NCBI GenBank assembly: GCA_030539615.1
Contig: JAUNXU010000006.1
Location: 1 to 47,482 of the forward strand
Source: Methanobacteriaceae archaeon
GTDB taxonomy: Archaea; Methanobacteriota; Methanobacteria; Methanobacteriales; Methanobacteriaceae
DNA: 47,482 nucleotides
Reading direction: 5' to 3'
Shown: positions 15,812-28,288 of the stretch, one piece after another
Layout of the letters: every line of letters starts with the position of its first letter
Position numbering within the stretch: position 1 is the first letter of the stretch
Program-made: the position numbers and the translations under genes
Notes under the pieces: generated by a model
Database searches by the model: none
The model's input: the letters and a program-made list of their open reading frames with translations, nothing else
What the model was told of the DNA's origin: nothing

Positions 15812-15959
15812 TATTAACATTCTCCAAAATTTTTTCATGATTTAATTTTTTTCTTCTATGTTAAATTTTATTTTTATATTTTAAGATTTAATTATAGAAA
15901 CATTATATATTATTATATAGTTTAATTTAATACTAAAATTATTATAATGGAGGGAGAAT

Positions 15960-16427
15960 ATTTTTTTAAATAAAAAATTTATTTCAATTATAGCAGTTAT
16001 TATTGTTATTCTTATTACATTATTAAGTCATAATAATATATTTGATTTAACTAATCATAATACAACAGAAAATATTAATAATAATACTATTAATGTTGTT
16101 GAAAATGGTCAATATTATTCAAAAGAAGAAGTTTCTGCATACATAACTAAATTTAATAAATTACCTAACAATTACATCACTAAAAAAGAAGCTAGATCTT
16201 TAGGATGGACAGGTGGTTCGTTAGAACCATATGCTCCAGGTAAAAGTATTGGTGGTGATATTTTTACTAATCGTGAAAAAGTTCTTCCAAGTGCAAGTAA
16301 ATATATTGAATGTGATATTGATACAAATGGTTCAGATAGTAGAGGAGCAAAAAGAATTGTTTATTCAGAAGATAAGAAAATTTATTACACTAATGATCAC
16401 TATAAAACTTTTAAACAAATAAATTAA
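15960..16427 (+). CDS. Secreted barnase-type ribonuclease, ATT start
   Basis: This 155-residue frame matches barnase (microbial ribonuclease N1/T1 superfamily) over residues 52-155. Conserved stretches include KLPNNYITKKEA (67-78), APGKSIGGDIFTNRE (92-106), and TNDHYKTF (144-151). The catalytic set aligns completely: Lys75 (barnase Lys27), Glu117 (Glu73), Arg128 (Arg83), Arg132 (Arg87) and His147 (His102). Residues 1-23 are a signal peptide or membrane anchor (two Lys, then a hydrophobic run), followed by an Asn/Thr-rich linker. There is no ATG, GTG or TTG in frame. The best start is ATT at 15960, 6 bases after GGAGG. The upstream in-frame stop is at 15945. The barstar-like gene follows by 19 bases. 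Confidence 0.85.
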   Translation: MFLNKKFISIIAVIIVILITLLSHNNIFDLTNHNTTENINNNTINVVENGQYYSKEEVSAYITKFNKLPNNYITKKEARSLGWTGGSLEPYAPGKSIGGDIFTNREKVLPSASKYIECDIDTNGSDSRGAKRIVYSEDKKIYYTNDHYKTFKQIN

Positions 16428-26775: not shown

Positions 26776-28053
26776 TTATGCAAAAAGACCTGATTCTTCT
26801 AGTTTTTCTTCTGCATATTTAGATTTTTTATCTAGTTTTTCTTTAATTATACATGTTAATATTAGTGTTACTATTGGATATATTAAGAATATTCCTATAT
26901 TGGTTAGGTAATTTGCCCATATTATTCCACCTAATGGTTCTCTTAATGCTGATATTGCATATGTATATGGTAAATATGGATTTATTGTTTGGAAAAATGT
27001 TCCTACTACTTCTATTGGATATAATCCTCCAGTTCCTGTAATTTGTACTACTAATATTATTACTGCTATTGCTTTTCCAACGTTTCCAAATGTTGAAACT
27101 AATGAGTATACTATTAACATTGTCGATAATCCTATTATAAACATTGTTATAATAAATAGTAATGGATCGGCTATATCAACTGATAACATGAATGTTCCAA
27201 TTGTTATTACTAATGTTTGACAAATACTTACAATTAAAAATATTCCCATTTTTCCGAAATAAGTTTCTATAGATGATACTTTTTCTTTTATTTTTGTTTT
27301 ATCTATTTTTACACTTAGTAATGCTGCTGTTATTATTGCTCCTACCCATTGAGATAATGTTAAGTAAAATGCTGCTATTCCAGATCCAAAGTTATCTAAG
27401 TCATAGTAACTGTAACTTGTTGTTTTTATTGGTGAATAGAAATAATTTTCTACATTTTGAGTGTTTTGTTCTTGTGATTGATTTGTTGTTTGATTTTGAG
27501 GTTGTGCTTGTCCATTTATTGCTTTTATTTGGAAGTATGTTTTTGTATCTAGTTCTTTTATTATTTGATTATTTATTTCTTTTTCTATTTTGTCTACTGC
27601 TGTTTCTGTGATTCTTGGTGCTATTGGATTTATTTTTTCATTGTTTATGTATTCTATTTCACCTTGTTGTGGTTGGGCTGTGTTTATTGATAATATGTTT
27701 GATGTAAAGTCTGAGGGTATTATTATTGCCGCATAATAATCTCCATTTTTGATTCCATTTCGGGCTTCATCTTCACTTTTAACCACCCAATTAAAATTTG
27801 TATCGTTATCTAAAGCATTAACTACTTCTTGACCATAGCTATAAGTTGTTCCGTTTATTGTTTGTGAAATATCATTATTTACAATTATAAAATCCATATC
27901 ATCTGTTCTGTTATATGGATCCCAACATGCATCTATATTACATAATGAGTATAATGAAGGGATTATTATAACAGCTAAAATTACTATGAGTGCTATTGGA
28001 TTTGTTAATAATGATTCCATATCTTTTTTCATTATTTTTAGTATATTGTTAAT
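26776..28053 (-). CDS. YhgE/Pip-like ABC-2 type membrane protein, short form, ATT start
   Basis: This 425-residue protein has an N-terminal membrane segment after a MKKDMESLLTNP stretch, an extracytoplasmic domain of about 190 residues opening with the family's ACWDPYNRT and IVNND wording, and about five C-terminal membrane segments from residue 225 on. It matches YhgE/Pip (phage-infection protein) but is about half the usual length. An ATG exists at 28032, but its SD would be 27 bases away. GGAGTG lies exactly 6 bases before an in-frame ATT at 28053, which adds seven residues that match the usual family opening (NNILKI before the basic stretch). I prefer the ATT. Transport role and substrate are unknown. 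Confidence 0.78.
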   Translation of the reverse strand: MNNILKIMKKDMESLLTNPIALIVILAVIIIPSLYSLCNIDACWDPYNRTDDMDFIIVNNDISQTINGTTYSYGQEVVNALDNDTNFNWVVKSEDEARNGIKNGDYYAAIIIPSDFTSNILSINTAQPQQGEIEYINNEKINPIAPRITETAVDKIEKEINNQIIKELDTKTYFQIKAINGQAQPQNQTTNQSQEQNTQNVENYFYSPIKTTSYSYYDLDNFGSGIAAFYLTLSQWVGAIITAALLSVKIDKTKIKEKVSSIETYFGKMGIFLIVSICQTLVITIGTFMLSVDIADPLLFIITMFIIGLSTMLIVYSLVSTFGNVGKAIAVIILVVQITGTGGLYPIEVVGTFFQTINPYLPYTYAISALREPLGGIIWANYLTNIGIFLIYPIVTLILTCIIKEKLDKKSKYAEEKLEESGLFA

Positions 28054-28288
28054 TTATATCACTCCATATACTGTTTTTTTAATTTAATATATATTATATT
28101 ACATATATAAATTTTATATATATCTTTTATTATATATATGCTTTTCTTAAATATCTTTTTGAAATATTAAATGGATAACTAAGATACTATTTAAATGATA
28201 AAAAAAATAGATATTAACATAATAAAGTTTAAAAAATAAATATTAAATTTATAAAATTATATTATCAAATTAGGGAGATGATTTTAAA

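Follow-up and report, generated by a model that had tools for sequence, protein, structure and literature searches.

In E. coli, the genes infC and pcnB have an AUU codon behind a Shine-Dalgarno sequence (SD) as their start, at which the ordinary initiator tRNA initiates inefficiently; such starts are monitored by IF3. The pcnB case is cited in PMC13009471. AUU starts are in general regarded as rarities, and a single AUG-to-AUU switch was reconstructed among 61,358 ancestral AUG starts (PMC5622118). In S. aureus, cvfC1 (AUU) and ccpN (AUA) also start behind an SD, in their case strong and conserved between species, and in poor medium the expression from non-canonical starts is about 10% of that from AUG (PMC13009471). 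All the AUU-start cases that we found in the literature are bacterial. As for archaea, the aIF1 of Sulfolobus reportedly helps to discriminate against starts other than the canonical ones (PMC6237735), so the use of AUU in Methanosphaera would interest that field.

The stretch of DNA analysed here (the window, 47,482 nucleotides) is contig 57 of a genome of the genus Methanosphaera, a gut methanogen. Since the host is an archaeon, initiation takes place with aIF1/aIF2 and not in the bacterial manner. The window's genome (G000) comprises 1.8 Mb in 139 contigs, with about 24% G+C, and it was compared with a closed genome of the same genus (G015), a single contig of 1,767,403 bases. The locus under study is the 5' end of a YhgE/Pip gene, with the following features:

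26776-28053, minus strand: open reading frame of a YhgE/Pip-family membrane protein, counted from ATT, 425 codons plus stop
28060-28065, minus strand: Shine-Dalgarno sequence GGAGTG, running on as GTGAT, which aligns with the GTGAT of the relatives
28054-28056, minus strand: in-frame TAA adjoining ATT, at the site of the relatives' ATG, the TG of which is missing in the window
28051-28053, minus strand: candidate AUU start codon, equivalent to codon 2 (Ile) of the relatives
28030-28032, minus strand: earliest canonical start, an ATG, at codon 8 and 27 nt after GGAGTG

The minus strand around the start, read directly, is ...cagtatatGGAGTGatataaATTAACAATATACTAAAAATAATGAAA..., in the order GGAGTG-ATATAA-ATT-AAC-AAT-ATA-CTA-AAA-ATA-ATG, and the spacer between GGAGTG and ATT covers 6 nt (28059-28054, minus strand). 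The sequence-only reading had described this layout, with GGAGTG 6 bases ahead of ATT 28053 and with ATG 28032 further on, and all its coordinates and spacings are correct. From ATT, the frame runs for 425 codons without an internal stop. The assignment to YhgE/Pip is given by two NCBIfam models, the N-terminal TIGR03061 (144.3 bits, cut-off 96.15) and the C-terminal TIGR03062 (152.2 bits, cut-off 102.2), both above the curated cut-off. The gene is flanked by hypC (PF01455, 28289-28516, divergent, about 235 bases from ATT) and thiC (PF01964, 25305-26606).

As the TAA stands in frame right before ATT, a longer N terminus is not available and the start has to lie between ATT and ATG 28032; with the TAA upstream and the first ATG only at codon 8, there is no usable canonical start at the N terminus of the family. 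Initiation at ATT would add seven residues, I/M-N-N-I-L-K-I, which had been proposed to fit the usual N terminus of the family. This holds in so far as the relatives have residues ahead of the position of ATG 28032; TIGR03061, on the other hand, stops short of these residues, so the family model alone cannot decide between ATT and ATG 28032.

More was learned from the nearest homologues (51-57% identity), all six of which present GTGAT-N3-ATG-ATT/ATA (Ile) followed by the same N terminus. In the alignment, the window reads GTGATATAA--ATTAACAATATA and the relative at locus L002 reads GTGATATAATGATTGAAAATGTA; the 2-base gap falls exactly within the ATG, while the SD and the coding sequence otherwise align. 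Judged from this alignment, the window gene is without the TG of the inherited ATG, the ancestral start is gone and ATT is the old codon 2. The ATT was inherited and not chosen as a start, a derived and species-specific case: an AUU start is not conserved among the YhgE orthologues, the nearest relatives having ATG one codon upstream. It follows that this ATT is not independent evidence of selection and cannot by itself prove AUU initiation. The earlier proposal of ATT as the YhgE start thus needs to be reworded, since it remains the likeliest start and yet is not a purpose-built one, being codon 2 of the relatives next to a retained SD. A search of the genome contigs with the YhgE protein as query found no relatives.

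The spacing of the SD was calibrated on 226 homology-supported ATG starts, in which GGAG lies mostly 7-14 nt and GTGAT mostly 3-6 nt before the start codon. At the YhgE ATT these distances are 8 nt and 4 nt, respectively, a normal spacing for this genome. It should be noted that an equally strong SD precedes about 7% of internal ATT codons; at this chance rate a single SD-led ATT is weak evidence, and the case rests on the comparative and genome-wide data. Taking these together, AUU is probably the start codon of this gene, presumably at reduced efficiency. The foremost alternative is a start at ATG 28032, used either at a low level with the help of the distant SD or on a leaderless transcript that begins at or close to this ATG; the product would then lack eight residues in comparison with the relatives. 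No canonical start codon precedes this ATG in the frame, a protein begun at this point would still span the TIGR03061/TIGR03062 region, and GATATAAATT, about 20-30 bases upstream, could pass by eye as a TATA box. Nevertheless, no normally spaced SD precedes it, GGAG standing 29 nt ahead where the training starts mostly show 7-14 nt; in addition, GTGATATAA aligns with the ribosome-binding site of the relatives and not with a promoter, and the residues upstream of the Met at 28032 are retained in all homologues with a readable start. We therefore regard a start at this ATG as unlikely.

Two unrelated genes of the window had been credited with the same layout, and the second one is most likely the barnase-like gene:

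15960-16427, plus strand: barnase-like ribonuclease (PF00545), ATT start at 15960-15962, in a frame without ATG, GTG or TTG

The open reading frame (15948-16427) begins with GGAGGGAG-AAT-ATT, the SD GGAGGGAG being located at 15949-15956. Its orthologue in G015 reads GAGGTGATTTT-ATT, with an ATG four codons further on. A separate observation is that a methanogenic archaeon has a barnase-like protein, its N terminus being hydrophobic, and downstream of the nuclease gene a barstar-like one (PF01337, 16447-16692).

The genome-wide scan covered about 2.4 Mb and 218 non-shadow open reading frames without a canonical SD-led start in their first 40 codons, and 60 shuffled motifs free of SD 4-mers served as controls. 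A reversed-SD control was discarded because GGAGG is common to it and to the motif. Strong-SD ATT codons numbered 26, against 9.9 +/- 4.1 for the shuffles (maximum 18), and none of the 60 shuffles reached 26; the excess over shuffled controls that had been suggested as a check of AUU use is thus present. Expressed as a ratio to all codons, the enrichment was 2.2, a value reached by 3 of the 60 shuffles. ATT was the only significantly enriched codon (p 1.2e-4), with no significant enrichment of ATA or ATC in the same scan; ATA, ATC and CTG, not enriched genome-wide, were rejected as general start codons. The SD-led ATT sites cluster in the first seven codons, and they include surface proteins with a hydrophobic signal-like segment right after ATT, one of them with pseudomurein-binding repeats. 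Large secreted or cell-wall-like proteins with such a segment directly after an SD-led ATT are found at L032:11215, at L038:7327 and at positions 1183825 and 50229 of G015. As adjacent ATTs were counted separately and some sites are internal, the 26 sites correspond to fewer genes, and we estimate 10-15 AUU-start genes, about 0.5-1% of the genes scanned. The SD of YhgE narrowly missed the score threshold, and this gene is therefore not represented in the 26 sites.

In addition, open reading frames were compared between parts of the two genomes, 0.95 Mb in G000 and 1.2 Mb in G015. A first list of those without a canonical start consisted mostly of antisense shadows and was filtered. Among 465 homology-supported frames in G000, a canonical start is accompanied by an SD in 388 and by a weak SD in 45, and is absent near the homologous N terminus in 32; the corresponding figures in G015 are 477, 29 and 24 (530 frames). 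The class without a canonical start is made up mostly of fragments, fusions or alignments into non-coding sequence, and a clean subset is left. Three genes, located as follows, lack ATG, GTG and TTG at the family start in both G000 and the closed G015:

L057:3697-4635 and G015 472854: rnz (RNase Z)
L078:13694-15055 and G015 near 102754: cca (archaeal CCA-adding enzyme)
L104:6922-7683, G015 198085-197333 and the nucS match in L171-L182: nucS, start ATT (ATA in L176) behind an SD

The start of rnz is AGGAGGGGAATA-ATT-ATT-ATT in G000 and GAGGTTATTAAT-ATT in G015, with ATT behind an SD in both, and nucS has TAA-ATT in both. For cca the start is ATC in G000 and ATA in G015; in G000, position 2 of TIGR03671 aligns to the residue after ATC, which places ATC at the Met position of the family. 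Furthermore, methanogenesis marker 2 has ATT in G000 where G015 has TTG, and a pilin-like gene of G015 (named by eye) has ATT where G000 has GTG. A ThiM-like gene of G015 (also named by eye) belongs to the clean subset, and an FMN-reductase-like gene starts with ATT or CTG; this gene and cca look like good single cases. The genes with non-canonical starts encode nucleases, the CCA-adding enzyme, surface proteins and others, YhgE being a membrane protein. RNase Z and the CCA-adding enzyme are two tRNA 3'-end maturation enzymes, both with weak start codons.

The conservation of the start across the genus was followed in nucS. A NucS query gave 12 further Methanosphaera loci (L171-L182), which together with G000 and G015 represent 14 species. 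The start column holds ATT in 12 of the 14 and ATA in one, while G000 presents ATT-ATT directly upstream of the genus start column. This column is preceded by an SD, and in most copies no further ATG comes until codon 26. No ATG, GTG or TTG occurs before codon 26 in G015, L176, L177 and L181, before codon 16 in L175, or nearby in G000. In five copies the SD includes a GTG that is in frame, and L178 has a TTG, so these six copies are ambiguous if taken singly. Since 40% of the internal Ile codons of the nucS genes are ATT, its presence in 12 of 13 at the start column has a binomial p of 1.4e-4, ignoring relatedness.

Given the scan together with the N termini conserved across species, the earlier suggestion that this organism really makes use of AUU initiation is supported, and these sequence comparisons make us highly confident that AUU initiation is real in the genus Methanosphaera. 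We did not adopt a change in the initiator tRNA or in aIF1 as the explanation, as aIF1 is present and ordinary and the only Met tRNA found in the part of the genome scanned is an ordinary one with anticodon CAU. We infer initiation at AUU, with Met as the first residue and at lower efficiency, and the simplest mechanism would be that Met-tRNAi decodes AUU as a near-cognate codon, with the SD as a stabilising element and at a reduced yield. In a few Methanosphaera genes, AUU would then be accepted by the ribosome as a start where an SD keeps it in the P site. With its anticodon CAU, Met-tRNAi would pair with AUU at the first two positions, so that Met is expected as the first residue of the protein. 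The YhgE/Pip gene of the window's species has lost two bases of its ATG, with the SD and the frame kept; ATT, the codon that follows, thereby came to lie at a suitable distance from this SD and would take over as the start. The product would be one residue shorter than the relatives' protein and probably of lower yield.

A possible objection is that TG dropped out through an error of sequencing or assembly and that the true gene has ATG-ATT as in the relatives. The window comes from a draft of 139 contigs, in which a 2-base error is possible, with at least one assembly artefact (a palindromic contig), and the change with respect to the relatives is exactly a 2-base gap. This artefact concerns contigs 77 and 78 (L108 and L109), which are identical, 2039 bases long and each its own reverse complement. 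Against an error, the bases flanking the gap differ from the relatives too, in the manner of ordinary divergence, and short reads do not usually suffer 2-base deletions. Moreover, an error at YhgE would leave the other ATT genes unexplained, several of them in the closed G015 genome, which makes this explanation quite improbable. Early decay of a YhgE gene that lost its start and is untranslated or translated only at trace level, in line with ATG loss as a typical first lesion, with the ATG retained in the relatives and with the rarity of AUG-to-AUU switches (one in 61,358; PMC5622118), is very improbable in view of the 425 codons without stop or frameshift, the two family models well above cut-off, the retained SD and the AUU starts that apparently work in other genes of the genus.

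Returning to AUU initiation and to the systems described at the beginning, YhgE shares with infC and pcnB an AUU codon behind an SD; those genes are bacterial and monitored by IF3, whereas Methanosphaera is an archaeon with aIF1/aIF2 and several genes are involved. In infC-type autoregulation the gene encodes the reader of its own start; YhgE encodes a membrane protein, and there was no sign of an initiation-factor gene among the AUU-type genes found. The resemblance to cvfC1 and ccpN lies in the AUU/AUA codon with an SD (PMC13009471). Those cases are bacterial and were shown experimentally, whereas the SD of YhgE is moderate and ATT is not a conserved start in its relatives. With respect to ordinary archaeal SD-led initiation at AUG, GUG and UUG, the SD motif and spacing are normal for the genome and aIF1 is ordinary, the difference being the proposed AUU start codon of YhgE.

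AUU initiation was already known in bacteria; what is new, as far as the literature searched shows, is that an archaeal genus makes use of it repeatedly and in part with conservation. No description of AUU starts in Methanosphaera was found in that literature, and an earlier mention in the M. stadtmanae genome paper is possible. Gene callers restricted to ATG, GTG and TTG would miss or shorten such genes, as in the barnase-like frame, which has no canonical start codon at all. A genus-wide AUU on an archaeal repair nuclease, together with further genes, is a natural system in which to ask how archaeal aIF1/aIF2 cope with AUU and whether the amount of a protein is governed by the weakness of its start. 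Still tentatively, the sequences may reflect a relaxed start-codon discrimination in Methanosphaera, in which roughly 0.5-1% of genes, including those for RNase Z, the CCA-adding enzyme and NucS as core enzymes of RNA and DNA, would start at AUU (or AUA/AUC), genus-wide in the case of nucS, and in which a gene like YhgE could lose its ATG and yet stay expressed. If this is true, weak starts may act as a dial at the level of translation, for example on tRNA 3'-end maturation.
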